A stretch of DNA of 64,000 bases from Portibacter lacus (lineage in GTDB: Bacteria > Bacteroidota > Bacteroidia > Chitinophagales > Saprospiraceae), in contig NZ_JAJNKA010000009.1 of NCBI RefSeq assembly GCF_021533215.1, positions 124,001 to 188,000 of the forward strand, given 5' to 3'. The notes below the pieces were generated by a model that was given only the letters and a program-made list of their open reading frames with translations, searched no databases and had not been told where the DNA came from. How positions within the stretch are numbered: position 1 is the first letter of the stretch; every line of letters begins with the position of its first letter. The translations under genes and the position numbers were made by a program. This document shows positions 4,959-20,550 of the stretch, piece by piece.

Positions 4959-5999
4959 TTACTGTGGCATATTTCTTAAGTCTTCCTCCGAAACGATTAC
5001 GATTTCGCTACCGTGGACCTCTATGATTCCTTCATGTTTGAAGTCTGTTAATGTTCGTGTAATGGTTTCTTTTGCTGAACCAGTGAAACTTGCTAAGTCA
5101 TCTCTTGATATTCTAAAATTCATTTGATGAGACTTAGCGGCGATGGATAATAACACATTCGCTAATTTCTTACGTACTGAACTGTAAGCGATTTCTATTA
5201 ACTGGCTTTCGGAATGTCCAGCGTGATTCGCTAATAAAGAAATAAATTTTGCAGAGAAATCTCGACTTTTGAACAGAAGCAGCCTAAAATCTTCTGCTGG
5301 AATCAAGGTGATTTCACTATTTTGTAAGGCTAGTGCATTTTCTGAATATTTTTCATTGTTAAGCAAATTAATATACCCGAAAAAATCTCCTTTGCTGAAT
5401 AAGTGAGTAATAAGATCTTTTCCCGATTCAGAAGTCTGGAATGTTTTTACCTGTCCTGAGTTAATGAAAAAGAGGTATTTAGGAATTTGACCTTCTTCGT
5501 AGATGAGATCTTTTTTATTATACTTTCTGACATCTCGATCTTTAGATAATTCTTTCAATTCTGCTTCAGCTCGAGCTTCATTGAAGAAAGTTCGCAATCC
5601 AGCATCTGAGTTGTCTATTTTCTTGAAAAGTGCACTTTTCTTAAGTCTCATTTCTATAGAGTCTAATAGCTCTACATCATCGAAAGGCTTTGTAATATAG
5701 TCATCTGCACCTAATCCCATGCCTTTACGGAAACTTTCTTTTTCTGTTTTAGCGGTAAGAAATAGGAACGGGATTTTAAATAATTCTGGATCTTTGTTAA
5801 TGATTTTTAAGACACCGAATCCATCCAGTTCAGGCATCATAACATCACACAAGATCAGATCAGGAATAATTGACTTAGCAATTTCTACTCCCACTTTTCC
5901 ATTTTTGGCCTGGTGTGTTTCATAGCTAGCAAGTTCAAGTATCTCGGATAGATTCTCTCGAATATCCTGGTCATCTTCTATGATTAGTATCTTTTTCAT
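4959..5999 (-). CDS. Receiver domain fused to Crp/FNR-family transcription factor
   Basis: A 346-residue fusion. Residues 1-120 form a CheY-like receiver with acidic pocket EDD (8-10), phospho-acceptor Asp52 in CDVMMPELDG and TAK near 100. Residues about 150-265 form a cyclic-nucleotide-fold effector domain, and about 270-346 a Crp-type winged helix. The recognition helix reads AKETITRTL: the E-x-x-[ST]-R pattern is that of FNR/FixK proteins, which read TTGAT half-sites. The only cysteine is Cys51, so it cannot hold an FNR iron-sulfur cluster; its input is probably phosphorylation. It combines what FixJ (receiver) and FixK (Crp-type output) do as two proteins. Divergent CBS/Usp genes and the nearby cbb3 cluster carry matching TGAT-N4-ATCA boxes. 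The likely partner kinase is at 19327-20550. Confidence 0.9.
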   Translation of the reverse strand: MKKILIIEDDQDIRENLSEILELASYETHQAKNGKVGVEIAKSIIPDLILCDVMMPELDGFGVLKIINKDPELFKIPFLFLTAKTEKESFRKGMGLGADDYITKPFDDVELLDSIEMRLKKSALFKKIDNSDAGLRTFFNEARAEAELKELSKDRDVRKYNKKDLIYEEGQIPKYLFFINSGQVKTFQTSESGKDLITHLFSKGDFFGYINLLNNEKYSENALALQNSEITLIPAEDFRLLLFKSRDFSAKFISLLANHAGHSESQLIEIAYSSVRKKLANVLLSIAAKSHQMNFRISRDDLASFTGSAKETITRTLTDFKHEGIIEVHGSEIVIVSEEDLRNMPQ

Positions 6000-6094
6000 C
6001 TTTATTTAAGATCGATTCTGCTTCAAATATGCCATTTTTTTCATGGTTAATGAATCGAATATAGATTTTTCATGTAATAGATCATTAACTGGGG

Positions 6095-6106
6095 TGACGC
6101 AGATCA
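6095..6106. promoter_or_regulatory. FNR/FixK-type box upstream of the CBS gene cluster
   Basis: TGACGCAGATCA matches TGAT-N4-ATCA in seven of eight defined bases. Its centre (6100.5) is exactly 29.5 bases before a perfect -7 element, TATATTTG at 6130-6137, which puts the box near -42 of the predicted start. A weaker half-match, TGTAATAGATCA (6073-6084), lies 22 bases upstream, the same offset as in the triple array at 19.0 kb. It sits between the receiver-Crp gene and the CBS genes. Confidence 0.55.
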
Positions 6107-6129
6107 TAAACACTTCATTGCTTGACATT

Positions 6130-6148
6130 TATATTTGAATTAATTCAA
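6130..6148 (+). promoter_or_regulatory. -7 element and palindrome before the first CBS gene
   Basis: TATATTTG (6130-6137) matches the Bacteroidota -7 consensus perfectly. It runs into the 14-base palindrome TTGAATTAATTCAA (6135-6148), which would cover the predicted transcription start. No good -33 TTG is present at 19-21 bases, in keeping with an activator-dependent promoter using the box at 6095-6106. Confidence 0.5.
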
Positions 6149-6167
6149 TGATTAAAAATATAAAATT

Positions 6168-6593
6168 ATGATCTCTAATACTAAAATAACTGCAGGTGAT
6201 CTGATGAGATCAAAACTTATTACACTGCATCCTAAAGATAAACTAGAACGTGTAAAGCAAATTTTCGATGATTACAGTTTTAGACACATTCCAATTGTAG
6301 TAGGAGGAAAAGTTCAAGGGATCATTAGCAAATCTGATTTTCTCCATATCGAAGGAACTAGCCGAGATAGTTTCGATAAATTTCTCAATAGCAAACGGTT
6401 TAAAATGCACACTGTAGATGAGTACATGAAAGCAGAAGTGGTTTGCTGTAAACTGGATACTCCGCTATTGAATCTGACCAAGCTTTTCCTTGCAAATGAA
6501 ATTCATTCTGTTTTAGTAGTTGATGATGAAGAACTAGTAGGCATTGTAACACCACAAGATATCTTGAGGTGGTTGCATAACGAAATAGAATAG
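6168..6593 (+). CDS. Two-CBS-domain protein
   Basis: A 141-residue protein made almost wholly of two CBS motifs (residues about 8-65 and 78-139). Hallmarks are FRHIPIVVGGKVQGIISKSD in the first and HSVLVVDDEELVGIVTPQD in the second. A CBS pair folds as a Bateman module that usually binds an adenosine nucleotide; with no enzymatic domain attached it must act on a partner or as a nucleotide buffer. It is the first of four such genes in this cluster and is preceded by an FNR/FixK-type box. Stand-alone CBS proteins are known members of hypoxia regulons in some bacteria (for example Hrp1 of Mycobacterium). Confidence 0.88.
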   Translation: MISNTKITAGDLMRSKLITLHPKDKLERVKQIFDDYSFRHIPIVVGGKVQGIISKSDFLHIEGTSRDSFDKFLNSKRFKMHTVDEYMKAEVVCCKLDTPLLNLTKLFLANEIHSVLVVDDEELVGIVTPQDILRWLHNEIE

Positions 6594-6632
6594 AAGCTGT
6601 GTGTTATATTATTTTTAATAAAAGAAAATAAG

Positions 6633-7277: not shown

Positions 7278-7338
7278 AGATCTAACACAGAATTAATATA
7301 CTGAAATTTGAAAAGTTGATAAAGGTCATGTTGAGTTC

Positions 7339-7350
7339 TGATAAGGATCA
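7339..7350. promoter_or_regulatory. FNR/FixK-type box upstream of second CBS gene
   Basis: TGATAAGGATCA is a perfect TGAT-N4-ATCA. Its centre (7344.5) is 29.5 bases before CATATTTA (7374-7381), a 6-of-8 match to TAnnTTTG. The predicted transcript would start just before the ATG at 7393, leaving a leader of only a few bases. Confidence 0.6.
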
Positions 7351-7392
7351 TGATTTATATCATTTGATTGTATCATATTTAAAATAAAAACA

Positions 7393-7836
7393 ATGAATTT
7401 ACTTGCGCCTGTTTCTTCAATAATGGCTAAGAATTTAATTACAATTTCTCCAGAAGATAGCATTAAAAAGGTTGAAAACTTATTTAAGCAACATGCTATC
7501 CACCATTTGCCAGTTGAATTAGATGGTAAGTTTGTAGGAATAGTAAGTAAGTCTGACTATTTATATTTTAAGCGAGGATTCAATGAAATTAACATAGAAG
7601 ACAAATGGGATCTTTTTCGATTAAAATCACATAATGTTAAAGAGATCATGACCAAGAAGATTGCAATCATGGCACCAGACGAAAAGATCAATGTAGCCAT
7701 CGAAATTTTTAAAGAAAATTTATTCCATGCCATTCCCATTGTTGAGAAGGAACGATTAGTGGGTATAGTCACGACGATGGATATCATCAAGCATTTATCA
7801 GAAGATAAAGAAATTTATAAATCATATAAAAAATAA
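7393..7836 (+). CDS. Two-CBS-domain protein
   Basis: A 147-residue paralogue of the 6168 gene, again only a CBS pair: first motif with IHHLPVELDGKFVGIVSKSD (about residues 37-56), second with FHAIPIVEKERLVGIVTTMD (about 109-128). The linker between the domains has KEIMTKKIAIMAPDEKI, where a new CBS motif begins. It has its own upstream box and promoter-like element and is followed after 2 bases by the universal-stress gene, so the two are cotranscribed. The ligand is unknown; adenine nucleotides are usual for the family. Confidence 0.88.
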   Translation: MNLLAPVSSIMAKNLITISPEDSIKKVENLFKQHAIHHLPVELDGKFVGIVSKSDYLYFKRGFNEINIEDKWDLFRLKSHNVKEIMTKKIAIMAPDEKINVAIEIFKENLFHAIPIVEKERLVGIVTTMDIIKHLSEDKEIYKSYKK

Positions 7837-7838
7837 TC

Positions 7839-8984
7839 ATGACAGCTGTTAAAATTTATGGAGCAGAAACTTCTCGTTATGAGTATTTCAAGTTTAACCT
7901 AGATGAGTTTATTAAAAAACATGATTTGAATATTATGATAGAAGAAATCAAGGATATTAATAAAATCATTGAAGAGAATGTTCAGTCTATTCCTACACTT
8001 AGAATTAATTCACATGTAGATATTGTTTATAATGATGAGAAAGGAATAGACCAATTCATATCGGAAGCTAAAAAAGAAATCGTACACGAATTTGCTCCTG
8101 GATTACTCACATCTATTCTTATTCCTGTGGATTTTTCTGAAATGTCATTGAATGCGTTGAATTATGGTATGGACTTGTCTAAGAAAATAGGTAGTGAAAT
8201 AGAACTATTGCATGTTAATCATCCATCACCTATGGTTGTGGAAGGTGCTGTGATCTTAGATAAAATTTCATCGGAGAATCAGAAATATAACCTTCAGAGA
8301 ATCGTAGATAATCATAAGATGGATCTGGATATGCGCCGAAATGAACACGAACTTGTGTTGTTCAAGACGACTTACCTAGAAGGATTTGCAGGTGATGAAA
8401 TCATTAGAATTTCTAAGGAGAAAGATCTTATTATCATGGGCGCTACCGGTGAAAATCTAACTAAAAAGTTACTTGGTTCTGTCTCTCTTAAAGTATTAAA
8501 AAAGGCACATTGCCCTGTTATCTTTGTACAGGAAAATCAGAAGTTCAAGGGTTTCGAAAAAATCGTATACGCATACTCTCCTACAGCATATGATCAGAAG
8601 GCCATAAAAGAAGTCGTAGAGTTAGCGAGTAAGTATAATTCAGAAGTACACTTGGTCCATGTAGACGATGGTTCAGATTTTACAAGCTTCGATATTGAAT
8701 CTTATGTTGCTCATATGTACGAAGGCCTTGAATTCATATACAAAGAAATAAAAGATGAAAGCGTTTCTTCAGGAATAACGAAATATGCTGAACAAATAGA
8801 CGCGGATCTCATTATTCTATCTAAGAAGAAAAAGAATTTACTTCAAAAGATAATAGATGTAAGCCAAAGTAAAGCGACCGTTCTTAAAGCAACAACGCCA
8901 GTAATGGTGTTGCATGAGTCAGATCGTGGTTGTCTTTGCGGAGGAGCGTGCAAGAGAAAACCGGAAGACAGTTGTAATCACTGA
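7839..8984 (+). CDS. Tandem universal stress protein with N-terminal thioredoxin-like domain and Cys-rich tail
   Basis: A 381-residue protein. Residues 1-80 resemble a small thioredoxin/glutaredoxin fold: a KIYG opening strand and IPTLRIN, the usual cis-proline region. The CxxC position reads AETSRYE with no cysteine, so the domain cannot be redox-active in the normal way. Two Usp domains follow (about 90-233 and 240-362). The first has an ATP-binding loop, GATGENLTKKLLGSVS; the second has lost it. The last 17 residues hold four cysteines and a terminal histidine (CLCGGACKRK...SCNH), a possible metal site or redox tail. The gene starts 2 bases after a CBS gene; pairing of Usp and CBS proteins is common in low-oxygen and energy-stress responses. 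Confidence 0.85.
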   Translation: MTAVKIYGAETSRYEYFKFNLDEFIKKHDLNIMIEEIKDINKIIEENVQSIPTLRINSHVDIVYNDEKGIDQFISEAKKEIVHEFAPGLLTSILIPVDFSEMSLNALNYGMDLSKKIGSEIELLHVNHPSPMVVEGAVILDKISSENQKYNLQRIVDNHKMDLDMRRNEHELVLFKTTYLEGFAGDEIIRISKEKDLIIMGATGENLTKKLLGSVSLKVLKKAHCPVIFVQENQKFKGFEKIVYAYSPTAYDQKAIKEVVELASKYNSEVHLVHVDDGSDFTSFDIESYVAHMYEGLEFIYKEIKDESVSSGITKYAEQIDADLIILSKKKKNLLQKIIDVSQSKATVLKATTPVMVLHESDRGCLCGGACKRKPEDSCNH

Positions 8985-9014
8985 TCAGTAATAAATTGTT
9001 TTAGGAGGGGAATT

Positions 9015-9095
9015 ATGACTAATTCAAAAGTAATTTTCTACACACATTTGCAAGAGCCATTTATAGAAAGAGAATATTTATTTTGCCACAATTAA
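9015..9095 (+). CDS. Possible 26-residue ORF with Shine-Dalgarno-like leader
   Basis: The ATG at 9015 follows AGGAGGGG (9003-9010) at ideal ribosome-binding spacing, which is unusual because Bacteroidota genes rarely use Shine-Dalgarno sites. The reading frame gives 26 residues beginning MTNSKVIFYTHLQE. It lies in the gap between the Usp gene and the third CBS gene. It may be a leader peptide or chance. Confidence 0.22.
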   Translation: MTNSKVIFYTHLQEPFIEREYLFCHN

Positions 9096-9107
9096 TTAAA
9101 ATGAGAT

Positions 9108-9554
9108 ATGAGTTCAATTACGATTGATTTAGAAATGAAGGTGACTGAGATTATGACTGAAAATCTGATTTCTGTAGATCCAAAAACTTCGATGTTGAAG
9201 ATTCAGGAAATTTTTGAAAAAGAATCTTTTCATCATTTGCCAGTTTTGGATGATCAGAGACGACCTGTAGGCATGATAAGTAAGAATGATTATCATAAAC
9301 TCCAGCATCATTTTACATTGATGAATATAAAAGACGCTGAAATCTATAATCAAAGGTTTTTTAAGTCTCTTATTGCTAAAGATATTATGAGTAAAAAGTT
9401 GATTTCGGCTCCAGCTAGTACGACTATAGGTGAGGCATTGAAAATGTTTCATGACAACAAATATCATAGTATCATTGTAGTAGGAGATGGCGAGTGTGTT
9501 GGAATTGTAACACCATATGATTTTATAGAAGTCCTATCAGAAATTAAAAGCTAA
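9108..9554 (+). CDS. Two-CBS-domain protein
   Basis: A 148-residue CBS pair. The first motif carries FHHLPVLDDQRRPVGMISKND (split over about residues 43-64), the second YHSIIVVGDGECVGIVTPYD (about 121-140). It starts 123 bases after the Usp gene and is followed directly by the fourth CBS gene (1 base between stop and the next start), so the pair is cotranslated. Two linked CBS pairs may assemble as a heteromer; this is an inference from spacing. Confidence 0.87.
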   Translation: MSSITIDLEMKVTEIMTENLISVDPKTSMLKIQEIFEKESFHHLPVLDDQRRPVGMISKNDYHKLQHHFTLMNIKDAEIYNQRFFKSLIAKDIMSKKLISAPASTTIGEALKMFHDNKYHSIIVVGDGECVGIVTPYDFIEVLSEIKS

Positions 9555-9555
9555 A

Positions 9556-9972
9556 ATGATGAAGAACCAGCGGGTGATCGAAATAATGAATAAGGACCCT
9601 AAGTGCCTAGAAAAGTCCTCTCCCTTGAAGTCAGTTGTGGAGTTAATCAGTGCACATCGATTTTCCCATGTTCCAGTTCTCAGTGAAGGTAAGTTAGTCG
9701 GAATCGTTTCTAAAAGTGATCTGATTAATAGATTTCTACAGATGTTGAATCAAACAAGTGGGAAGTTCTACTCGAAAATGCTAATGGAACATATCAAAGT
9801 AGAAGACATCATGAAGGCGGATCCTATTACTATCCATGAAAATGACGACATAGAATATGCTTCAGAATTACTGTTGCAAGGCGAGTTTCATAGCCTTATT
9901 GTGCTTAATGATAAGGATGCAGTTACAGGTATTGTTACTGCATATGACATATTGAAAGCAAAATCTCAATAG
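9556..9972 (+). CDS. Two-CBS-domain protein, last gene of the cluster
   Basis: A 138-residue CBS pair: FSHVPVLSEGKLVGIVSKSD (about residues 36-55) and FHSLIVLNDKDAVTGIVTAYD (split over about 112-132). The start codon is 1 base after the stop of the preceding CBS gene. A strong terminator follows at 10013-10043, which closes the CBS/Usp unit. The four CBS pairs of this cluster share the same layout and the repeated phrase VGI(V/I)(S/T), so they arose by duplication, but they are well diverged. Confidence 0.87.
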   Translation: MMKNQRVIEIMNKDPKCLEKSSPLKSVVELISAHRFSHVPVLSEGKLVGIVSKSDLINRFLQMLNQTSGKFYSKMLMEHIKVEDIMKADPITIHENDDIEYASELLLQGEFHSLIVLNDKDAVTGIVTAYDILKAKSQ

Positions 9973-10363: not shown

Positions 10364-11059
10364 TTAGTGGCACATGATTTTTCCCATACTCCATAGTAAT
10401 TCCAAGTTTTCAGGAACGTTAATACCATATGCTCGATAGATCAGAAAGCAACCAACTAATAACTGAAGAACAGCAAAAATACTTTTCAAATTGATCCTTT
10501 TTCTAAGATCCAGCACAGAAATACTTGCTAAGAGTAAAAACATAGCTGGGAAGGTTCCTAGGCCGAAAAAGAGCATAAATTGACCACTTTTAAGAAAGCC
10601 ATCAGATGTCATTGCTCCAGCTAATGCTAGATAGACAAGCCCGCAAGGTACGAATCCATTAAGCATACCCATCAAGAATGAGTTTTGGGAAGATATTTTC
10701 TGAACGACTTTCGTGATAAAGGTTCTATAACTAGTGAAAATGCTTCGAAATTTGCTTGATTTGAATAAGACCTTTTCGATATCTAATGATAGAAAGAAAA
10801 GTAGAATTAATCCAACCCCCATAATTAAAGTCAATGGCTTCTGGATCCCCGAAATATTGATTACACCACTTAGTACACCCATAAATAATCCTAGGACAAC
10901 GTAGCTCGCTACCCGCCCAGAATTATAGCCGATTATTCTTGTGTAATTCCTAGCTGAACGCTCTTCGATACCAGGTAGTAATGCAAAGGCTAAAGGCCCG
11001 CACATACCTAGACAGTGGAGACTTCCGAATAAACCCAATGTGAAGGCTACATAAATCAT
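10364..11059 (-). CDS. SafE/TauE-family membrane protein of the cbb3 cluster
   Basis: A 231-residue protein with about six membrane spans, of the cytochrome-biogenesis-transmembrane/UreH-like group often annotated as sulfite exporter TauE/SafE. Signature repeats are GSLHCLGMCGP near residues 12-22 and NGFVPCGLVY near 134-143. In cbb3 operons of Bacteroidota this gene regularly follows ccoH, and a role in copper or redox handling during oxidase assembly is likely; the sulfite-exporter name should not be taken as a function. Its start overlaps the last bases of ccoH (11056-11059), so it is translationally coupled and is the last gene of the operon. Confidence 0.82.
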   Translation of the reverse strand: MIYVAFTLGLFGSLHCLGMCGPLAFALLPGIEERSARNYTRIIGYNSGRVASYVVLGLFMGVLSGVINISGIQKPLTLIMGVGLILLFFLSLDIEKVLFKSSKFRSIFTSYRTFITKVVQKISSQNSFLMGMLNGFVPCGLVYLALAGAMTSDGFLKSGQFMLFFGLGTFPAMFLLLASISVLDLRKRINLKSIFAVLQLLVGCFLIYRAYGINVPENLELLWSMGKIMCH

Positions 11060-11502
11060 AGCTTCTGAATATAGATATCTTGTTCTTTAAAGTAGGATCG
11101 CGCATTATCCGCCCATTCTACTTTTACTTGCCATTTTCCTGGAATAAGGGTTTCTAGGTCAATGTCAGCCGCGTCTGCAGTATTATCTATTGAATAATTG
11201 AAATCAGATGATTTATCAGATGCTCTATAGAGATGAACTTGTGCATTTTTGAAATCACTCTGCTCCCCAAAGTCAAGTTTTAGCTTTTTTTCAGTTTGAT
11301 TATAAGTGATATTAAGATCTTGAGCAAGTAGTTTCCTATTCTTAATCTTATCTAGTTTTTCTTGAAAGTGAATATCATGTTCATAATAATTTTCTTCTAC
11401 TAAAGAATGATCTATAGTAGTAGATTTCACTACAACTCTAACTAAATTTCCTATGTAAAGAATAAAAAATATAAGCAATCCCGTTCCCCAATTAATCTTC
11501 AT
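11056..11502 (-). CDS. ccoH: CcoH/FixH-like cbb3 oxidase assembly protein
   Basis: A 148-residue protein with one N-terminal membrane anchor (about 4-24) and a periplasmic beta domain ending in a FixH-like GKWQVKVEW motif. CcoH/FixH stabilises the cbb3 oxidase and links it to the copper-supplying ATPase CcoI. The gene lies 6 bases after ccoG and overlaps the SafE-like gene by 4 bases, the standard order. FixH proteins are poorly conserved in sequence; the call rests on size, topology, the terminal motif and gene order. Confidence 0.83.
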   Translation of the reverse strand: MKINWGTGLLIFFILYIGNLVRVVVKSTTIDHSLVEENYYEHDIHFQEKLDKIKNRKLLAQDLNITYNQTEKKLKLDFGEQSDFKNAQVHLYRASDKSSDFNYSIDNTADAADIDLETLIPGKWQVKVEWADNARSYFKEQDIYIQKL

Positions 11503-11508: not shown

Positions 11509-12918
11509 CTATTTTATAGGTCCTAAAAATGTTGTTTTCACTTGATCGATTTCTCGATCACCAACCATCACCGAAATTTTCAAGTTTGTCTTTCTATCTA
11601 ATATTTTAGATTTCGGAATTTTTATAAAAACGGCTCCTTCTGAATTACCATTACTAACTGTAGTAGGATGTTCTCCAGCAAACTCGAATTCTACATCATC
11701 TATATTTGTACATACAAATTCGATTTTATAAACGTTCCCAGTTTTGTTAGTTAGTTGGTAATTGAATAAATTAGAAATGGTTCCGTCTTCTAATTCATAA
11801 TACATGGTTCCTGGCGTTCTTAGCATTAATACATCCACCTCCGATCTGTTAATAAATAAGAAGGATTCTAATACTAATAAAATCAGTAATACACTACTGT
11901 AAGCTATCGATCTTTTATTGATCAATTTATGTTTCTTGTTAACGATGCCTTCATAACTATCTAATCGGATGAGCCCTTTAGGTCTTTCGATCTTTTCCAT
12001 TACTTCATCACAAGCATCCATACATGCTGTACAGTTAACGCATTCTAATTGGATACCATTTCTTATATCTATTCCAGTAGGACAGACCTTGACACATAAA
12101 TTACAATCGATACAATCTCCTAAAGCTGGTGTTTCTGGCTCCACTTTTTTCTTCATTTTTCCTCTAGGCTCTCCACGTTCGAAGTCATAATAGACAGCAA
12201 GTGATTGCTTGTCTAATAATACTCCTTGTAATCTTCCGTATGGGCAGATTGTGGTACATACTTGCTCTCTAAGAAATGCGAACACACCATAGAATATGAA
12301 GGAAAAAACGATCATTGCAATGAAACCGTTAAGGTGCATGGAAATAGGTTCTTTGATAATATTGATCACTTCATCTACGCCTATAATGTAGGCTAGAAAA
12401 GTGTTCGCAATTAACACTGCAATACCGAAGAAAAGTATTTGCTTGATAGTTTTCTTCAGTATTTTATCCTTGGTCCATGGAGCATTGTTCAATCTTCTTT
12501 GAGCATTAGCATCGCCTTCTATCCAGTATTCTATCCGACGATAGACCATTTCCATGAAAATAGTTTGCGGACAGATCCATCCACAAAATAGCCTTCCGAA
12601 AATAACGGTGAATAGGGCAATGAAAACCATGAAAATCAACATGGCGATGACAAAGAGGAAGAAGTCTTGTGGTGGGAAATAGATCCCGAATATTATAAAC
12701 TTTCGTTCTAGAATATTAAGTAAAACTAACGGAGATCCATTCCATTTTATCCACGGTAATCCAAAAAGGGTCAAGAGCAGAAGGTAGCTGAGCCACTTTC
12801 TGTATTTGTAGAAAATACCTTTTGGCATTTTCGGATAAATCCAGATTCGCTTACCACTTTTGTCTACTGTGGCTAGTTCGTCTCTAAATCCCTCTTCATC
12901 CTCTATGAAATCTTCCAT
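11509..12918 (-). CDS. ccoG: CcoG/RdxA polyferredoxin, cbb3 assembly and copper reduction
   Basis: A 469-residue membrane iron-sulfur protein. Membrane spans lie near 43-58, 86-110, 155-180, 198-215 and 330-350. CGWICPQ (112-117) and CTTICPYG (221-228) are the membrane-proximal cysteine pairs. Two classical 4Fe-4S motifs follow: Cys269-272-275-279 and Cys293-296-299-303. The C-terminal 110 residues form an extracytoplasmic Ig-like domain. CcoG is known to reduce copper (II) for oxidase assembly. It lies 3 bases after ccoP and 6 before ccoH. Confidence 0.95.
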   Translation of the reverse strand: MEDFIEDEEGFRDELATVDKSGKRIWIYPKMPKGIFYKYRKWLSYLLLLTLFGLPWIKWNGSPLVLLNILERKFIIFGIYFPPQDFFLFVIAMLIFMVFIALFTVIFGRLFCGWICPQTIFMEMVYRRIEYWIEGDANAQRRLNNAPWTKDKILKKTIKQILFFGIAVLIANTFLAYIIGVDEVINIIKEPISMHLNGFIAMIVFSFIFYGVFAFLREQVCTTICPYGRLQGVLLDKQSLAVYYDFERGEPRGKMKKKVEPETPALGDCIDCNLCVKVCPTGIDIRNGIQLECVNCTACMDACDEVMEKIERPKGLIRLDSYEGIVNKKHKLINKRSIAYSSVLLILLVLESFLFINRSEVDVLMLRTPGTMYYELEDGTISNLFNYQLTNKTGNVYKIEFVCTNIDDVEFEFAGEHPTTVSNGNSEGAVFIKIPKSKILDRKTNLKISVMVGDREIDQVKTTFLGPIK

Positions 12919-12921: not shown

Positions 12922-13857
12922 TTAATTTTTTGCATCCTCCGTTTCTACTGCATCGTTAGATCCTATAGGCGTAGACTCTTCAGGAACATATAGTTCTCCT
13001 TCTTTGTCCTTCGGATTTGGAGGATTTGTACCTTTTAAAGATTGAATATAACTAGCTACGTTCTGCATGGTAGTCGGCTTTAGTTGACTTGCCCACGCAA
13101 TCATTCCTTTCTCCGGAACACCGTATTTAATCGTCTTGAAAATACTCTGAATGCTTCCACCATGTATCCAGTAATCATCCGTTAGATTTGGACCCACGAT
13201 ACCTTGTCCTTGCACTCCATGACATGCTGCACAACTCTTTACAAAGATTTCCTCTCCTAATAATAGTCTGTCTTTATCATCCACATATACAACAGTATTC
13301 TCATCAACTACACTAGCTGAATTAGCAAGAAATTTTTCTTTCTGAATTTCAGCATCTTCCATTGCAATGTTATATTCCTGTAGTGAGCTCCATTCATTCG
13401 GTCCCCATTGGTAGATGTATAAATAAACCACTGCGAAAATGATCGTTCCGTAGAACATACCTACCCACCATGGTGGAAGTTTGTTATCTAATTCTCGAAT
13501 TCCGTCATAATCGTGTCCCAAGTCAATGGTTTCTTCTTTGTCCTTTGGAACTAGGTTCCACATTTTATCGTAGATCTTTTTCCAACTTGGAATTTGTATT
13601 GCCTCAGTAACTTCTTCTTTTTCTATTCCTAGTTCTTGATTAAGCCTTAGTTTCTGAAGCTCTATAAAGTTAAAGACCATATTGATTAAAGTTGCAGCAG
13701 CTGCAATAATAACCAGTCCAGCTAAGATCAAAAATATATTTTCAAAGGCCAGTTCCATAAGAGGAGAGCCGCCTTTAGCATTGGCTGCCAAAGGGAGAAG
13801 AGATATTCCTCCCATTAAAAGCAACGTTCTTTTTAAATATTTATTTAGTTGATTCAT
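12922..13857 (-). CDS. ccoP: CcoP subunit of cbb3 oxidase, single-heme form
   Basis: A 311-residue membrane-anchored cytochrome c that delivers electrons to CcoO/CcoN. Hydrophobic segments near residues 9-27 (possible signal/anchor), 38-62 and 130-150 are followed by one cytochrome c domain. There is a single heme motif, CAACH at 209-213, with Met252 (KGMIAWA) as the likely sixth ligand. Proteobacterial CcoP has two hemes; the one-heme form is typical of Bacteroidota. The acidic tail (about 290-311) is unstructured. It lies between ccoQ and ccoG with 17- and 3-base gaps. Confidence 0.94.
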   Translation of the reverse strand: MNQLNKYLKRTLLLMGGISLLPLAANAKGGSPLMELAFENIFLILAGLVIIAAAATLINMVFNFIELQKLRLNQELGIEKEEVTEAIQIPSWKKIYDKMWNLVPKDKEETIDLGHDYDGIRELDNKLPPWWVGMFYGTIIFAVVYLYIYQWGPNEWSSLQEYNIAMEDAEIQKEKFLANSASVVDENTVVYVDDKDRLLLGEEIFVKSCAACHGVQGQGIVGPNLTDDYWIHGGSIQSIFKTIKYGVPEKGMIAWASQLKPTTMQNVASYIQSLKGTNPPNPKDKEGELYVPEESTPIGSNDAVETEDAKN

Positions 13858-14072: not shown

Positions 14073-16196
14073 TTATTTAGTAATGTTTTCAGGCTTAGCA
14101 TCTGTACCTAATCTTTGCAGGTAAGCAATTAATGCTGTAATCTGTTTGGTCTCTAAATTTTCTTGCTCGATACCTTGAGATTTCAGAGCTGCTACGATTT
14201 CTTTAGCCTGTTTTTCTAAGTCAGCTACTGCTTTGTCAGCATAATTTTCAGGATAAGGTGTGTTCAGCGTTTGTAACACTCTTATCTTAGCAGCAGTATA
14301 TTCTGTATTAATCTCTCGTGTAAATAACCATGGATATGCTGGCATAATAGAACCAGGAGACATGGATGTCGGATCTTCCATGTGACTGTAATGCCAACTA
14401 TGAGAATATTTTGCTCCTACTCTATGCAAGTCAGGTCCAGTTCGTTTCGATCCCCATAAGAATGGTCGATCATATACAAATTCTCCTGACTTAGAAAAGT
14501 CTCCGTATCGCTCTGTTTCAGATCGGAATGGTCTTACCATCTGAGAGTGGCAACCTACACAACCTTCAGAAATATAAATATCTCTTCCTTCTAATTCCAA
14601 TGGAGTATAAGGTTGCACATTGGTGATTTTTGGAACATTCTTGTCAATGAGTATCATAGGGAATATTTCCACGAGCCCACCGATAAGAACAACAATAGTT
14701 GCAACAATTAACATCTGGATAGGTCTTCTTTCTATCCATCTGTGCCAATGTTCGCCTTTTTGTTTCTTTACTTTTTTCAATGGAGGGAAACTAACTTCGG
14801 TATTTTCAATTGTACCCGTTTTAGCCGTTTTCCATAAATTGTAAACCATTAAGAAAACCCCCAATACATATATTGTTCCACCTAATGCTCTCAAAGCATA
14901 CATCGGTATAATTACAGTTACGGTTTCTAAGAAGTTTCCATAAGTTAATAAACCGTCTGGTTCGAATTGTTTCCACATTAAACTTTGTGTCCATCCTGCC
15001 CAATAAAGTGGAATAGTGTAGAATAAAGTTCCTAGTGTAGCAATCCAGAAATGCCAATTGGCCATTTTCCCAGAATACAATTTGGTATTATATAATTTAG
15101 GAATTAACCAGTATAAAATACCGAAGGTTAACATTCCATTCCAGCCTAAAGTACCTACGTGAACGTGTGCTACCGTCCAATCCGTATAGTGACTGATTGC
15201 ATTAATAGATTTTATAGAAAGTAAAGGTCCTTCCAGAGTTGCCATACCGTATGCGGAGATCGCAACCACCATAAATTTCAAAATTGGATCTTGTCGTACT
15301 CTATCCCATGCTCCTCTAAGCGTTAATAGTCCATTCAACATACCACCCCAAGAAGGAGCGATAAGCATAATGGAAAACGCGGTTCCTAAAGATTGAGCCC
15401 AGTCAGGTAATGAGGTGTAAAGTAAGTGGTGAGGCCCAGCCCAGATGTATATGAAAATAAGTCCCCAGAAGTGAATGATCGATAATTTATAGGAATATAC
15501 AGGTCTGTTTGCCGCTTTCGGTAAGAAATAATACATCAATCCTAAGTAAGGCGTTGTTAGAAAGAACGCAACCGCATTATGTCCATACCACCATTGAATG
15601 AGTGCATCTTGAACTCCTGCGAACACTGGAATACTTTGTGTTAATGATACAGGAATAACCAAGTTGTTAAAGATGTGCAATACGGTTACCGTAACCCAAG
15701 TTGCAATATAGAACCAGATTGCTACGTATAAGTGATTTTCTCTTCGTTTAATGATGGTTCCGAACATATTCAGTCCGAATGCAACCCACACCACAGCAAT
15801 TAAAATATCTATAGGCCACTCAAGCTCTGCGTACTCATGAGAACTGGTAAAGCCTAATGGTAAGGAAATTGCTGCAAGCAGAATGATCGATTGCCATCCC
15901 CAGAAATTAAACTTAGAGAGAAAGTCACTCCACATCCTTGCCTTTAATAGACGCTGTAGGGAATAGTACACTCCCATAAAGATCCCATTTCCCACAAATG
16001 CAAAAATCACTGCATTCGTATGAAGTGGTCGAATTCTACCGAAAGCTGTTTCTGCAGAAAAGTTAAGAGCAGGAAATACAAGCTGGAATGCAGCAAGTAA
16101 ACCAACTAACATTCCCACTACTCCCCAAATTGCAGTAGCGATGGCAAAATTTCTTACAATTTTGTCATCGTATTTAAAGGTTTCTAAATTACTCAT
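14073..16196 (-). CDS. ccoNO: Fused CcoN-CcoO, catalytic and mono-heme subunits of cbb3 oxidase
   Basis: A 707-residue fusion. Residues 1-480 are CcoN with about 12 membrane spans. Heme and copper ligands are visible: His59 (PLHTNAV) and His346 for the low-spin heme, His206 (WYGH) and His256/His257 (GPHHLLY) for CuB, and His344 (VAHVH) for the high-spin heme. Residues about 490-707 are CcoO: one anchor (about 493-512), heme motif CVGCH at 546-550, and Met in SPGSIMPAYPW as sixth ligand. The enzyme reduces O2 at low concentrations and pumps protons. Proteobacteria keep ccoN and ccoO separate; the fusion is usual in Bacteroidota. It starts 27 bases after ccoS. Confidence 0.97.
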   Translation of the reverse strand: MSNLETFKYDDKIVRNFAIATAIWGVVGMLVGLLAAFQLVFPALNFSAETAFGRIRPLHTNAVIFAFVGNGIFMGVYYSLQRLLKARMWSDFLSKFNFWGWQSIILLAAISLPLGFTSSHEYAELEWPIDILIAVVWVAFGLNMFGTIIKRRENHLYVAIWFYIATWVTVTVLHIFNNLVIPVSLTQSIPVFAGVQDALIQWWYGHNAVAFFLTTPYLGLMYYFLPKAANRPVYSYKLSIIHFWGLIFIYIWAGPHHLLYTSLPDWAQSLGTAFSIMLIAPSWGGMLNGLLTLRGAWDRVRQDPILKFMVVAISAYGMATLEGPLLSIKSINAISHYTDWTVAHVHVGTLGWNGMLTFGILYWLIPKLYNTKLYSGKMANWHFWIATLGTLFYTIPLYWAGWTQSLMWKQFEPDGLLTYGNFLETVTVIIPMYALRALGGTIYVLGVFLMVYNLWKTAKTGTIENTEVSFPPLKKVKKQKGEHWHRWIERRPIQMLIVATIVVLIGGLVEIFPMILIDKNVPKITNVQPYTPLELEGRDIYISEGCVGCHSQMVRPFRSETERYGDFSKSGEFVYDRPFLWGSKRTGPDLHRVGAKYSHSWHYSHMEDPTSMSPGSIMPAYPWLFTREINTEYTAAKIRVLQTLNTPYPENYADKAVADLEKQAKEIVAALKSQGIEQENLETKQITALIAYLQRLGTDAKPENITK

Positions 16197-16222: not shown

Positions 16223-16375
16223 TTATTTCGTTTTGTTATCATCTTCGAAAAGCATCCTCATCGATGGTGTGTGATCATCGTCATATTGGCCATCTTTCAC
16301 TGCCCAGAAAAAGGCAAATAAAAAACCCAGGGCCAACACTAAACTCACACCTATAAGCAAAAGAATGATTTTCAT
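16223..16375 (-). CDS. ccoS: CcoS cbb3 oxidase maturation protein
   Basis: A 50-residue protein, short enough to be easily missed: ATG at 16375, stop at 16223-16225. A single N-terminal membrane span (about 3-23) leads into the family signature FFWAVKDGQYDD and an acidic tail with RMLFEDD. CcoS is needed for insertion of the metal cofactors of the cbb3 core. It sits between ccoI and ccoNO, as in most cbb3 clusters. The 90-base gap upstream holds an FNR/FixK-type box, so ccoS-ccoNO-ccoQPGH may be transcribed separately from ccoI. Confidence 0.95.
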   Translation of the reverse strand: MKIILLLIGVSLVLALGFLFAFFWAVKDGQYDDDHTPSMRMLFEDDNKTK

Positions 16376-16393: not shown

Positions 16394-16435
16394 CAAATTA
16401 GTAGAGACTGCACTCTTCCTTTATGATAGGTATCA
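16394..16435 (-). promoter_or_regulatory. FNR/FixK-type box and promoter for ccoS-ccoNOQPGH
   Basis: TGATAGGTATCA (16424-16435) is a perfect TGAT-N4-ATCA; read on the minus strand with flanks it is TTGATACCTATCAT. Centre 16429.5 is 29.5 bases from the start of a minus-strand -7-like element, TAATTTG (16400 to 16394; one base shorter than TAnnTTTG). The spacing equals that found at 6.1, 7.3 and 19.05 kb. It lies 19 bases or more upstream of the ccoS start. Confidence 0.62.
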
Positions 16436-16465
16436 AAGGGAAAAATGATTTGTGTCACTTTTTTA

Positions 16466-18826
16466 TTACAATAGTTTTAAAGAGAGCCATTTACTCACTA
16501 ATAATCCATAAACCATTATGGTAATACTGCTCGTCGGCATCAAGATCGCAGCAACGATCGGTGATAAATTCCCGGTAACAGCAAAACCAAGTCCAATAAA
16601 ATTATATAGAAAAGCTATAATGAAAGCTCCGATTAATGCAACTTTTAACTTCTTAACGTAATCGAGGATTTGGATAAATCCAGCCAAGCGATCTGATGAA
16701 ATGATGGCATCACAAGCTGGGGTGAAAGTGTTATTATCTTCCGAAACAACCATCCCTACATCACTTTGCTTTAGCGCTCCAGCATCATTAAGTCCATCTC
16801 CTACCATCATTACGCTAGCTCCGTTAGCTTGTAATTCCTTAATGTATTTCAATTTATCTTTTGGGCTTTGCTCGAAATTTAGAACAGCACCTTCTGGAAA
16901 AATTTCTTTCATTCGAGACCTTTCTCGTTCATTATCACCAGATAGTAAAGCCAACTTGTAGGAAGATAAATTAGTGATGATGTTACTAATATTCCTCCTT
17001 AATTTTTTTTCAAAGGTATAGTGCCCTATTATTTGATGGCTCATTTCAATAATTACATTTCTTTCATCATTATTTTCTGCTCCTAATATGAAAGATGCTG
17101 AACCAATTTTTACAAGCTTTCCTTCACATTCTGCGATAATTCCTTTTCCAGGGACTTCCACATAATTAGATACTGATCGTAATGTTCCATTTATTTCTTG
17201 AGAAATGGCAGTACTGAGTGGGTGGCTAGATTGTGAAGTAACCGAAAATATGATGTCTCTATCTGTAGCGGATAGTGGGTTTCCTATAAAAGCGGCATTC
17301 ATAGATTTGTTCTCCGTAATAGTTCCAGTCTTATCGAATACGATGGTGTCGATGTCTAATAATTTTTCAAGGGTTTCTGTGGATCTGGCATAGAATTCTT
17401 TTTTCCCTAAGATTCTGGTTGCGTTTCCGAGAATAAAAGGGACCGATAAGGCTAAAGCACAAGGACATGCAACGATAAGAACGGCTGTGATAGATCTAAA
17501 GGCAGTAGAAACATCTACAAAGATCCAAAATAAGAAAGTAAGCGTAGCAATTGCCAGTATCGTCCAAGTGAAATACTTACTGATGTTGTTAAGTAATAAT
17601 TCTGCTTTGCTAGATTTTGCTTCTTTGAAAGGGCTTTCTTGCCATAGTTGCGTCAAGTAACCTTGGTCTACCGTTTTACTAACTTTAATTTCTATAGAGG
17701 AAGATGTCTGCTTTCCGCCCGCGAATATGGGCTCTCCTATGCTCATGGATTTTGGAGTCGTTTCGCCTGTGACAAAGCTGTAATCTATTTGAGCATTTCC
17801 TGCGATTAGTTCACCATCGCAAGGAATGATTTCTCCGCTCCGCACTTTAATAATTTCATCTACCTCTATCTTATCTATAGACTTGCTTATCCAAGAATTT
17901 TCAGAAAGTACTTGAATCGCTATAGGGAAGTAGCTACGGTAGTCTCTGTCGAAAGCGATAGACTTTTTAGTAAAGTCCTGAAACCATTGACCTATAAGAA
18001 GAAAAAGTACAAATCCAGCAAAACTATCTAGGTATCCTTCACCTGTAGTTGAAAGGATCTCATAAACACTTCGAAGAAATAACGTGATCATTCCTATAGC
18101 AAGTGGAACATGAATTCCCAGGTTGCCTTGTTTAATGTTTTTTACCGCATCTGATAGATAGCCATATCCAGAATAGAAAAATACAGGTAATGCTAGCAAA
18201 ATATTGATGTAACCTAAGTAGTAAGACGAGGCTGCATCAGCAAATCCTAAGTATTCAGGAAAACTAAGCAACATAATATTTCCGAATGAAAAACCTGCAA
18301 CTCCGATTTTTAATAACAGTGAACGATCTACAGTCGTATTTTTTTCTTCGTGTAGTTTCGAGAAATTAAGCTCCGGTTCATACCCAATTTTATAAAGTAA
18401 GGAGACAAGTTCGAATAATTCTATTTGATCATGCTCGAAAGTAATGTAGGCCTTTTTTTCGAGGAAGTTAACCGTGCAATTAGAAATACCAGCATGTAGT
18501 TTGGGCAAATTTTCTAGTAAATAGAGACAAGAAGCGCAATGAATAGCTGGTAATTTGAAATTAACTTTGGATAATTTTTCATCCCTAAAAGAGAGAATTT
18601 TGAGAACGGCGTCTGTTTCTTTCAGGTACTCTAGGTCTTCAGGGACAATATTGTATCTGGAAACACCTGGATGCTTTTCGATATCATAATACTGTGTAAG
18701 GTCACTATCCTTTAACAGTAAGTAAATCTGCTTACACCCATTACAGCAAAAGTTTAACGGACCTGTTTCATCACAAGTTTCGCCACAATGGTCGCATTTT
18801 GTCTGAATGTTAATTTCTTTAAGCAA
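16466..18826 (-). CDS. ccoI: CcoI/FixI-type copper P1B-ATPase, cbb3 assembly
   Basis: A 786-residue P-type ATPase that supplies copper to the cbb3 core. An N-terminal cysteine cluster (CDHCGETC, CCNGC; residues 11-31) is followed by a heavy-metal domain with HCASC (Cys97, Cys100), a membrane block, the CPC motif (IVACPCALALS, about 450-460), the phosphorylation site DKTGTITE and the hinge GDGLNDAGALK. No ATG is available before the cysteine cluster; the frame opens with TTG at 18826, which overlaps the stop of the 37-residue upstream ORF by 8 bases, so initiation is probably coupled. It is the first large gene of the cbb3 cluster and lies downstream of three tandem FNR/FixK-type boxes. Confidence 0.94.
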   Translation of the reverse strand: MLKEINIQTKCDHCGETCDETGPLNFCCNGCKQIYLLLKDSDLTQYYDIEKHPGVSRYNIVPEDLEYLKETDAVLKILSFRDEKLSKVNFKLPAIHCASCLYLLENLPKLHAGISNCTVNFLEKKAYITFEHDQIELFELVSLLYKIGYEPELNFSKLHEEKNTTVDRSLLLKIGVAGFSFGNIMLLSFPEYLGFADAASSYYLGYINILLALPVFFYSGYGYLSDAVKNIKQGNLGIHVPLAIGMITLFLRSVYEILSTTGEGYLDSFAGFVLFLLIGQWFQDFTKKSIAFDRDYRSYFPIAIQVLSENSWISKSIDKIEVDEIIKVRSGEIIPCDGELIAGNAQIDYSFVTGETTPKSMSIGEPIFAGGKQTSSSIEIKVSKTVDQGYLTQLWQESPFKEAKSSKAELLLNNISKYFTWTILAIATLTFLFWIFVDVSTAFRSITAVLIVACPCALALSVPFILGNATRILGKKEFYARSTETLEKLLDIDTIVFDKTGTITENKSMNAAFIGNPLSATDRDIIFSVTSQSSHPLSTAISQEINGTLRSVSNYVEVPGKGIIAECEGKLVKIGSASFILGAENNDERNVIIEMSHQIIGHYTFEKKLRRNISNIITNLSSYKLALLSGDNERERSRMKEIFPEGAVLNFEQSPKDKLKYIKELQANGASVMMVGDGLNDAGALKQSDVGMVVSEDNNTFTPACDAIISSDRLAGFIQILDYVKKLKVALIGAFIIAFLYNFIGLGFAVTGNLSPIVAAILMPTSSITIMVYGLLVSKWLSLKLL

Positions 18827-18932
18827 TATAATAGAGTAAGAGAACTATTGAAATTGTAAAAATTAGAATAAGAAATAGGATACTAAAAAAAGGCATGACG
18901 TGTTCGAATAAAGATTTAGTCTTTTTTCCCAT
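18819..18932 (-). CDS. 37-residue single-span membrane ORF overlapping ccoI
   Basis: The ATG at 18932 opens 37 codons: a basic start (MGKKTKSLFEHVMPFF) and one membrane span ending LLLYYIA. The stop (18821-18819) lies inside the start region of ccoI, which begins with TTG at 18826. The ORF is the first reading frame behind the triple FNR/FixK box array, with a perfect minus-strand -7 motif (TAGATTTG, 18956 to 18949) 17 bases upstream. It could be a small regulatory or assembly subunit, or a translated leader that couples ccoI initiation. No family is recognised. Confidence 0.55.
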   Translation of the reverse strand: MGKKTKSLFEHVMPFFSILFLILIFTISIVLLLYYIA

Positions 18933-19001
18933 TGGTAATTTTTTTTAGCAAATCTAATCTTGATTTACATGAAGATTAATGATGGGTGTCAATTCTAAAA
19001 T

Positions 19002-19013
19002 TGATCTTGATCA
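19002..19013. promoter_or_regulatory. FNR/FixK-type box, copy 1 of 3
   Basis: TGATCTTGATCA, preceded by T (TTGAT), matches TGAT-N4-ATCA perfectly. It is the box nearest ccoI. On the minus strand, a weak -7-like TAATCTTC (18978 to 18971) is 29.5 bases from its centre, and a perfect TAGATTTG lies further on at 18956 to 18949. Confidence 0.65.
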
Positions 19014-19024
19014 CTATTAAAAAG

Positions 19025-19036
19025 TGATATAGATCA
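19025..19036. promoter_or_regulatory. FNR/FixK-type box, copy 2 of 3
   Basis: TGATATAGATCA sits within the longer near-palindrome AGTGATATAGATCACT (half-sites AGTGAT/ATCACT). It starts 23 bases after copy 1 and 22 before copy 3, about two helical turns in each case, so proteins on all three boxes would lie on the same face of the DNA. Confidence 0.65.
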
Positions 19037-19046
19037 CTAGAAAATA

Positions 19047-19058
19047 TGATCTAGATCA
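19047..19058. promoter_or_regulatory. FNR/FixK-type box, copy 3 of 3
   Basis: TGATCTAGATCA within the perfect palindrome ATGATCTAGATCAT. Its centre (19052.5) is exactly 29.5 bases before the perfect plus-strand -7 element TATATTTG at 19082-19089, which points away from ccoI. Confidence 0.65.
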
Positions 19059-19081
19059 TTTTTTACATCTCTTTTTGGTTC

Positions 19082-19089
19082 TATATTTG
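19082..19089 (+). promoter_or_regulatory. -7 element of a rightward promoter
   Basis: TATATTTG matches TAnnTTTG exactly. No TTG lies at the normal -33 distance; box copy 3 occupies the activator position instead. There is no protein gene on the plus strand downstream before the convergent kinase gene. Confidence 0.5.
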
Positions 19090-19095
19090 AATAAA

Positions 19096-19262
19096 GTGAT
19101 ACTCAAGCCATGAAAGCTATCTAAAAGTATCAAATTCGAACAACAGAAAAGTAGGTTATTTAAGCGTTTTTTATCGTATGCAAAAAAAGAAAATTTGCTA
19201 TTTAATCGATAAGGAAATAATAAATAAGAATAGGTTTTAAAGAGACTGAATTTCAGTTTTTA
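19096..19262 (+). ncRNA. Candidate small RNA under FNR/FixK-type control
   Basis: From the predicted start near 19096 the transcript would open with a hairpin: GATACT (19098-19103) pairs with AGTATC (19126-19131), with an inner AGC/GCT pairing. It would end at ACTGAA/TTCAGT (19245-19257) followed by TTTTATT, a weak terminator. No coding frame of note lies within. The stretch is not explained by either neighbour gene. This is a prediction from promoter, fold and terminator only. Confidence 0.35.
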
Positions 19263-19326
19263 TTAATCCATTGTGAAGAATTGTTCGATCACAAAAGGCA
19301 TAAAAATTAGTTTTATATTGTTTAGT

Positions 19327-20550
19327 TTATAGGCTAGGAGATTTTGGGATTTGCACAGTAAATGTGCTCCCAATATTCTCCTTACTCTCAAAGGTTAATT
19401 CTCCATTTAACAAGTGCACGTAACGTTGTACAATAGGAAGTCCTAATCCAGTTCCTTGGATATTTTCTGCATTAGTAGCTCTGAAGAATCGTTCGAATAA
19501 GTAGATCTGTTGCTCTGTAGGAATTCCCATACCATGGTCTATAATACTCATGATTAAGTTGTCCACATCGCTTTTTACATGTACTGTTATTTCACCAACT
19601 CCAGAATACTTGATCGCATTTGATAATAGGTTGAAAAGAATATTTTTTATCGTGTTTTTATCGGAGTGAATGGAGACTTCTTCATCAATAATTAATTTAA
19701 GAACCTGTCCTTCCTTTAAAAGACCTTCTAACTCAGAAAATGTTTCATGAACGATTTCTGAAACATTGATAGTGACTAAGTTTAGTGTGACCTTGCCTTC
19801 TTCTAATTTGGATAAATCGAGAAAATCATTTAGAATTCCAGTTAAGTGATTAACGGAGCTCTTTATTTTTTGGATGTGTTTGATTCTTTTGTCTTGTGAT
19901 GCAGCGTCTTCATATTTTCCGATTAATGCTGCTGAAGACAATATGGTACTAAGTGGTGTTCTGAATTCGTGTGCTGCTGTTGTGATAAATCTGGTCTTCA
20001 GCTCGTTAGTTTTTTTCTCAGATTGTAAAGCGTCTGTAAGAGCCTCTTCACTTTTTTCAAGTTTTCGGTTCGTCTTGATTAACCTATTGATTACAGATTC
20101 AAGCTCATTCGTTCTCTCTGCTATTTTTTCTTCTAGCTTTTGGTTTAATTTCCATAGATCATCTTGTGCTTTCTTTGTATCAGAAATATCATGAATGATC
20201 CCAGTAAACATAACGCGATCATTCAGCACTACCTCACTAACAGCAAGTCTGAAAGGAAATACGGTACCATCTTTTTTTCTTCCTTTAACCTCTCGACCGA
20301 TGCCTATGATTTTGGCCTGACGAGTAGTAATGTAATTATGGAGATAGGAATCATGTTTCGAATGATCGGGCTCAGGCATAAGCATAGAAACATTGTTGCC
20401 GATCATGTCTTCTTTAGTGTATTGAAATAGATTGTGAACTGCTTGATTCACGGTTTCTATATTCCCGCGACTATCAATGGTGATGATGCCATCGATTGCT
20501 GCTTCGATGATGGAATTTAGTCTAAGTGCAAATTCTTCATTAGATTTCAT
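19327..20550 (-). CDS. PAS-domain histidine kinase, FixL-like oxygen sensor candidate
   Basis: A 407-residue soluble kinase without membrane spans. The PAS domain (about 8-125) has SKHDSYL with His66 where FixL has its heme ligand, and IIGIGREVKGRKKDG with Arg86 exactly 20 residues on, as His200 and Arg220 are in Bradyrhizobium FixL. A coiled coil (about 128-185) leads to the HisKA box TAAHEFRTPLS (His194) and an HATPase domain (NLLSNAIKYS, DHGMGIP, GTGLGLPIV). The probable role is autophosphorylation when O2 leaves the heme and transfer to a receiver. No receiver gene is adjacent; the receiver-Crp fusion at 4959-5999, across the cbb3 cluster, is the natural candidate. Heme binding itself is inferred. 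Confidence 0.85.
   Translation of the reverse strand: MKSNEEFALRLNSIIEAAIDGIITIDSRGNIETVNQAVHNLFQYTKEDMIGNNVSMLMPEPDHSKHDSYLHNYITTRQAKIIGIGREVKGRKKDGTVFPFRLAVSEVVLNDRVMFTGIIHDISDTKKAQDDLWKLNQKLEEKIAERTNELESVINRLIKTNRKLEKSEEALTDALQSEKKTNELKTRFITTAAHEFRTPLSTILSSAALIGKYEDAASQDKRIKHIQKIKSSVNHLTGILNDFLDLSKLEEGKVTLNLVTINVSEIVHETFSELEGLLKEGQVLKLIIDEEVSIHSDKNTIKNILFNLLSNAIKYSGVGEITVHVKSDVDNLIMSIIDHGMGIPTEQQIYLFERFFRATNAENIQGTGLGLPIVQRYVHLLNGELTFESKENIGSTFTVQIPKSPSL

Follow-up and report, generated by a model that had tools for sequence, protein, structure and literature searches.

A predicted haem kinase and one-chain receiver-Crp regulator for low-oxygen gene control in Portibacter lacus and other Bacteroidota

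How might Portibacter lacus adjust its cbb3 oxidase to the supply of oxygen? In a 64,000-nucleotide stretch of its genome (contig NZ_JAJNKA010000009.1, positions 124,001 to 188,000; hereafter the window, numbered from its first letter), the cbb3 cluster (10364-18826) sits between the genes of a response regulator with a Crp-type output (4959..5999, minus strand) and a soluble PAS kinase (19327..20550, minus strand). A first-pass annotation had read the two as an oxygen-limitation circuit in which a FixL-like kinase acts through a one-chain FixJ/FixK-like regulator on genes nearby. Our analysis of the window and of 198 relatives partly supports that interpretation. An FNR/FixK-like wiring to the cbb3 genes and to genes for CBS-pair and universal stress (Usp) proteins is well supported by comparative genomics, and very likely the circuit does exist as a two-component system that controls genes at low oxygen. 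We further consider it quite probable that a cognate haem kinase and one-chain regulator activate the cbb3 and stress genes when oxygen is low.

The kinase has 407 residues, no cysteine, and no indication of a membrane span (highest 19-residue hydrophobic mean, 1.36). Pfam profiles place PAS at residues 10-122, HisKA at 185-252, and HATPase_c at 297-404. The PAS domain aligns without gaps to the haem domain of FixL (1dp6, E 1.9e-27, query residues 10-134) and also matches the haem PAS structures of EcDos/DosP (1e-10 to 5e-12). The gapless alignment puts His66 and Arg86 at the haem-pocket positions of FixL, which we take to be His200 and Arg220, in agreement with the spacing first proposed, and both residues are conserved in 25 of 25 aligned kinases (that of the window and 24 others). 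Structure prediction of the pocket, suggested earlier as a check, agrees with this assignment: in the AlphaFold model (mean predicted local distance difference test score 82, predicted template modelling score 0.50, ten-residue blocks near the pocket at 74-91), His66 lies in helix 62-76 and Arg86 in strand 83-91 of the PAS fold. The NCBI FixL equivalog model NF041777 gave 153 bits, below its cut-off of 850. As judged by eye, the FixL signature is absent from the genome's other four PF00989 matches, which fall in two proteins, with this as the only PAS model tried.

The regulator is a single chain whose Response_reg (residues 4-115), cNMP_binding (158-243), and HTH_Crp_2 (278-343) domains all exceed the Pfam cut-offs, so that the fusion of a receiver to a Crp-type protein was recognized correctly. 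Asp9, Asp52, Thr82, and Lys104 of the receiver are invariant among 28 aligned sequences; the Asp, Lys, and Thr of the receiver, the HisKA and HATPase domains of the kinase, and the pairing of the genes together make up the features of a two-component system. The recognition helix reads AKETITR and includes the ETITR noted originally. In the same alignment, Lys310, Glu311, and Arg315 of the helix are invariant, and the second Thr is replaced by Ile in 26 of the 28 sequences. The only cysteine, Cys51, adjoins Asp52, and the Fe-S cysteine set of FNR is not present. An invariant Tyr218 appears, from a hand alignment to CRP residues, to occupy the position of the phosphate-binding Arg of CRP. The description as FixJ/FixK-like holds in so far as one protein joins a receiver to a Crp-type output, but the receiver best matches the MtrA, PhoB, and RpaA types and was not FixJ-like in our searches, and the output consists of cNMP_binding and HTH_Crp_2 with no LuxR/FixJ-type helix-turn-helix. 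Unlike the stand-alone Crp-type FixK, the regulator carries a receiver, and its output half is sister to FNR-like proteins, as described below.

Given that the two genes lie 13 kb apart in the window, we asked how they are arranged elsewhere. Of the 198 relatives, 110 have both genes, 8 have only the regulator, 2 have only the kinase, and 78 have neither (Fisher p 6e-43). For these counts, kinases were taken at E up to 1e-60 (126 in 112 genomes), and the 129 regulators, from 118 genomes, are the full-length ones among the matches listed, which reached weak matches. One kinase-alone genome, G049, has a frame-broken regulator, which was excluded; a regulator cut by a contig end in G040 was scored as absent. 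A kinase gene lies upstream on the same strand within 500 bp of 97 of the 129 regulators and within 30 bp of 60, and the genes overlap (gap -1) in 10 of the 33 same-strand pairs measured in 40 fetched neighbourhoods. The window is therefore an exception, shared with G002, which has a split pair with identical gene order and the cbb3 cluster between. The idea that the two proteins act together is supported by this pattern; their placement around the cbb3 cluster applies to the window, but in relatives they are usually adjacent to each other. Of the 40 neighbourhoods, 37 contain CBS or Usp relatives and 8 contain cbb3 genes. In a scan of named genomes, with Bacteroidota as its scope, the best 80 matches are Bacteroidota as far as titles show. 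Saprospiraceae predominate, and Pontibacter, Adhaeribacter, Reichenbachiella, Chryseolinea, Ohtaekwangia, Fulvivirga, Arenibacter, and Ferruginibacter are also represented. Within these named genomes, the pair neighbours cbb3 genes in several Cytophagales and Chitinophagales, including Chryseolinea serpens, Ohtaekwangia koreensis, and a Ferruginibacter metagenome-assembled genome. The two architectures thus occur together in several orders and not in this bacterium alone, which answers the co-occurrence check suggested at the outset. Our locus sets overlap partly because they draw on the same genomes, and counts from different sets are not additive. That the kinase and the regulator form a cognate two-component pair is well supported by these comparisons.

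Which DNA would such a regulator read? We scored the noncoding DNA of the 40 neighbourhoods for 256 four-base half-sites at 15 spacers, and TGAT-N4-ATCA ranked at the top of the 3840 combinations: it occurred 74 times, compared with 5.6 times on average when its spacer was changed. The next-ranked motifs were ATGA-N6-TCAT, a shifted form of it, and TGAC-N4-GTCA. Among the site pairs within 60 bp of each other at the 40 loci, 46 of 55 are exactly 22 bp apart; three control spacers together gave two pairs, none of them at 22 bp. TGAY-N4-RTCA, in pairs 22 bp apart, is the preferred site and the one that we predict the regulator to read. The rhizobial anaerobox is TTGAT-N4-ATCAA (PMC7888657), a sequence that the first-pass annotation had named as the site of FixK. 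Its core was recovered, but the outer bases differ: among the 46 tandem pairs, A precedes the core in 23 and 25 and T in 9 and 9, and T follows it in 25 and 28. Over the first 28 kb of the window, TTGAT-N4-ATCAA, TTGAC-N4-GTCAA, and TGTGA-N6-TCACA have zero exact matches, and with one mismatch only the first and the last were found.

Exact TGAT-N4-ATCA sites number eight in the window, where 3.6 were expected (2 of 100 shuffles gave as many), and six of the eight fall in the three intergenic regions that precede the CBS-Usp genes, ccoS, and ccoI. Pattern search, without regard to strand, located a tandem site at 7317..7350 before the CBS-Usp genes (7317 and 7339, 22 bp apart, with an extra site at 7351), another at 16424..16457 before ccoS-ccoNO (16424 and 16446, 22 bp apart), and a four-site array at 18980..19058 before ccoI (18980, 19002, 19025, and 19047, in steps of 22, 23, and 22). 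Of the genome's seven exact tandem pairs, four are in the window (7317/7339, 16424/16446, 18980/19002, and 19025/19047). Two others stand before Usp genes in a four-Usp cluster on contig 22, where one also precedes a gene on the opposite, divergent side, and the last is on contig 32, in the gap that separates an ArsR-like gene from a divergent cupin gene; gene names at sites outside the window were read from translations. Allowing one mismatch added three pairs, before another contig 22 Usp gene, an ArsC-like gene followed by pta, and an acetyltransferase-like gene, and the control pattern then also gave one. The second four-Usp cluster (4669-9113 of locus L323) carries two tandem sites that match exactly and a third that departs from the pattern at one base. 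Thus, sites do precede the cbb3, CBS, and Usp genes named as targets at the outset, but the target set reaches outside the window. In relatives, pairs also precede hemN (in two of them), Hsp20, and carboxymuconolactone-decarboxylase-like genes, again read from translations.

Across the relatives, the tandem pattern occurs in 95 of the 118 regulator genomes (400 sites), and a reversed control pattern gave 2 sites in all 198 genomes. It is also present in 14 of 26 genomes that have only an FNR-like protein of the kind described below (29 sites) and in 9 of 54 with neither (22 sites). In the window's own family, the corresponding counts are 75/85, 1/2, and 6/33. Three loci counted as without the fusion regulator (L245, L247, and L143) also have 22-bp tandem sites. 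A tandem pair is found in 29 of the 40 regulator neighbourhoods (28 at 22 bp, one at 23), and 26 of the 130 oriented pairs with a downstream gene, a set that overlaps these neighbourhoods, point at a kinase gene of the same kind.

Where a promoter element is found nearby, the sites mostly keep one distance from it. A search of both flanks of 110 distinct pairs for the TAnnTTTG -7 box gave 43 hits, 32 of which begin at offset 29 from the near-site centre; every other offset has at most two hits, and four wrong spacers have none at offset 29. A published Flavobacterium map locates this box at -12 to -5 (PMC9723704), which would centre the near site at -41.5 and its far partner at -63.5, so the regulator should act as a class II activator. 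The ccoI promoter fits this geometry: its -7 box, TAGATTTG (18949..18956, minus strand; position computed), is at offset 29 from the centre of site 18980, and the four sites fall at -41.5, -63.5, -86.5, and -108.5 (offsets by hand).

The closest relatives that we found for the Crp half of the regulator are FNR-like proteins of other genomes in the order. In a quick tree, 40 regulator Crp halves form one clade (SH-like approximate likelihood-ratio test 97) beside 29 FNR-like proteins, of which 17 carry a CxxC..C..C set of cysteines. The regulator probably had a single origin, in the fusion of a receiver with an FNR-like protein. We chose the 46 FNR-like genomes by eye among the matches listed, as short frames matching from near the N-terminus (those of G024, G168, and G174 match later). 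An FNR-like query at E up to 1e-25 returned the regulator as its sole match in the window's genome, with no FNR-like orthologue. Across 112 ccoN genomes, the fusion occurs by itself in 69, the FNR-like protein by itself in 18, both in 16, and neither in 9; the two are negatively associated (p 7e-6, with no correction for kinship). Sites in noncoding DNA before ccoN were found in 19 of 20 regulator genomes within 3 kb and in 24 of 29 within 1.5 kb, and in 10 of 20 genomes without the regulator (9/14 FNR-like-only and 1/6 with neither), the latter being 20 of the 26-27 regulator-less ccoN genomes. G029 (L143) was omitted from the regulator-positive set; its pair is among the 110 used for the -7 box if distinct. 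The receiver was considered as the specific cause of the 22-bp pairing and rejected, since FNR-like-only genomes pair likewise. A scenario to which we give about even odds is that a receiver was captured, on a single occasion, by an FNR-like activator that then came under the control of a FixL-like haem kinase, with the same two-dimer promoters at -41.5/-63.5 read by either protein; sensing would have moved while the regulon was kept.

The circuit that we propose would work as follows. The soluble kinase would bind haem through His66, and oxygen bound beside Arg86 would hold it inactive. At low oxygen, the kinase would phosphorylate Asp52 of the regulator, and phosphorylated dimers would bind side by side, two per paired TGAY-N4-RTCA site. 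By exact site, the predicted targets are the CBS-Usp genes, ccoS-ccoNO and the genes downstream, ccoI, the second Usp cluster, and the cupin gene. Sensing would take place in the kinase instead of the DNA-binding protein, and the FixJ-to-FixK step would be missing. The parts played by haem, oxygen, and phosphotransfer we infer from the conserved residues and the pairing.

Several observations weigh against this circuit. An exact tandem pair is missing in 23 of the 118 regulator genomes and, as noted, present in 9 of 54 with neither protein, and 33 genomes have the regulator but no ccoN match. Over an equal length of 1.5 kb before ccoN, sites are found in 16 of 20 regulator genomes versus 10 of 20 without it. 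Because FNR-like-only genomes share the sites, their pairing, and their geometry, these features do not prove the role of this regulator and are weaker evidence for the fusion alone. TAnnTTTG stands at offset 28-30 in only 12 of 29 tandem-bearing neighbourhoods; in the window, as seen by eye, the ccoS promoter shows only TAATTTGC where the box should stand, and the CBS-Usp site lacks such a box at that offset. The mirror-tree correlation between the two proteins is weak (r 0.31, 36 protein pairs; 0 of 2000 permutations as high), and beyond G002 the nearest relatives of the window kinase differ from those of the regulator. The pocket itself varies: among the 95 loci where an upstream PAS could be detected, 19 lack the His and Arg pair, and 15 of these 19 keep the His.

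This last point bears on what is sensed. Of 120 regulator loci, 76 have His and Arg in an upstream PAS, 19 another PAS, and 25 none found, at contig ends or with a different gene order. The Arg position in the 15 His-keeping variants holds Leu (5, two of them from one genome counted twice), Met (5), Gln (2), Glu, Val, or Tyr, and the signal may therefore differ between lineages. A second kind of PAS upstream of the regulator (in L210, L219, L221, L203, L186, and others) keeps the His and has MGxGM/MGxxL in place of IGxGR; it possibly responds to a different gas or ligand. Under one alternative, the pair is cognate and reads the sites, and the PAS domain senses nitric oxide, carbon monoxide, the redox state, or a non-haem ligand. 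The variants speak for it, as does the paired kinase of L084, whose PAS matches EcDos/DosP (1v9y, 2.9e-9) nearly as well as FixL (1d06, 1.6e-10), and so do Asn72 and Lys80 of the window kinase at what we take to be the propionate-side Arg206 and His214 of FixL. The window PAS nevertheless keeps the His, the Arg, and the Ile and Leu beside them and offers no cysteine for an Fe-S cluster, and the predicted targets, including cbb3, Usp, and hemN, are typical low-oxygen genes, so we rate this alternative as unlikely. We find it improbable that another Crp/Fnr protein reads the tandem sites of the cbb3 and Usp genes while the pair controls something else. The genome has 17 cNMP-domain matches, several of them short proteins with a similar E-S-L-S-R helix (by eye), and the same sites occur in FNR-like-only genomes, but the family counts given above follow the regulator, the window's genome lacks a detectable FNR-like orthologue, and the pairs recur beside the regulator and before kinase genes. 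The notion that the regulator is the genome's only Crp protein with a Glu...Arg helix was rejected, as the short Crp proteins share it. A view of the two genes as unrelated neighbours of cbb3, with a merely generic resemblance to FixL and FixK, could appeal to their 13-kb separation and to general PAS kinase models that score as well as the FixL model on the window kinase (MASE3_PAS_HK 1e-54, FixL 9e-45), but is already contradicted by adjacency and co-occurrence in relatives and is scarcely credible. A cognate oxygen-responsive haem kinase and one-chain regulator is thus the reading that we keep.

Between the two genes, four CBS genes and one Usp gene, all on the plus strand, occupy 6168-9972. 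The CBS-pair proteins are encoded at 6168..6593 (Pfam), 7393..7836 (translation and neighbourhood comparison; the CBS protein that in relatives most often stands divergently next to the kinase-regulator pair), 9108..9554, and 9556..9972 (the last two from translation only), and the universal stress protein, with a weakly matching thioredoxin-like N-terminal part, at 7839..8984 (Pfam, neighbourhoods). The cbb3 cluster, on the minus strand, comprises a DsbD_2-type membrane protein (10364..11059) and ccoH (FixH; 11056..11502), both by Pfam; ccoG (11509..12918) and ccoP (12922..13857; TIGR00782, 112.5 bits, not reaching the cut-off of 180) by NCBI family profiles; a ccoN-ccoO fusion (14073..16196; NF011053, 1239 bits); a probable ccoS of about 50 residues (16223..16375, sequence by eye); and a ccoI-type P-type ATPase (16466..18826; Pfam and NCBI profiles). 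Textbook CcoP has two haem motifs; the CcoP encoded here has a single CxxC (Cys209, Cys212). A small membrane-like frame of about 37 residues (about 18819-18932, minus strand), seen by eye, directly precedes ccoI and overlaps its TTG start. Outside this region, 4040-4597 (minus strand) encodes an exosortase/archaeosortase family protein that passes TIGR04178 and stays under the XrtH and XrtX cut-offs, next to a membrane protein gene at 3436-4059 without a Pfam match. A single 6517-residue frame at 32444-51997 (plus strand), scanned in two parts, has many DUF11 repeats in its first 6000 residues, and its product looks like a giant surface protein.

Comparison with known systems helps to place the circuit. 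In mycobacteria, the haem kinase of DosR/DosST controls Usp and CBS-type genes at low oxygen, but with a GAF haem domain, a LuxR-type output, and different proteins. FixL-FixJ-FixK of rhizobia and Caulobacter shares the FixL-type PAS kinase, the Crp-type activator of cco genes, and the N4-spaced TGAT/ATCA core; here, in contrast, one protein replaces FixJ and FixK, its receiver is not FixJ-like in the searches made, the outer bases of the site differ, and the sites are mostly 22-bp pairs. The hFixL-FxkR-FixKf route of R. etli and R. leguminosarum likewise leads through an alternative two-component system to a FixK-type protein (PMC4999443, PMC7888657), but retains two regulators in series, and FxkR recognizes a K-box of its own. 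FNR/FnrN and the FNR-like proteins of the order are sister to the Crp half, have an E-[TS]-x-x-R helix, and share the sites; they lack a receiver, and the cysteine set found in 17 of 29 of them differs from the single cysteine of the window regulator. A comparable exchange of FnrN for FixLJ-FixK is described in Alphaproteobacteria (PMC4999443), which the receiver capture would parallel with one step fewer.

In F. psychrophilum, cbb3 is strongly induced at low oxygen (PMC9723704), and term counts in the main text of that report did not return the words Crp or response regulator. Among the open-licence PubMed Central papers that our searches listed, we found little on low-oxygen sensing in aerobic Bacteroidota and no report of a receiver-Crp protein in this phylum, which is not proof that none is in print. 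Comparative sequence data make a strong case for the circuit, which is wider and better defined than it first appeared and extends across several Bacteroidota orders. It supplies a concrete sensor, regulator, DNA site, and promoter geometry, all predicted, for many genera, some of them cultured, and would be an example from nature in which the sensor was replaced and the regulon retained. If this is true, a large bacterial group moved the place of oxygen sensing without rewiring the regulon.

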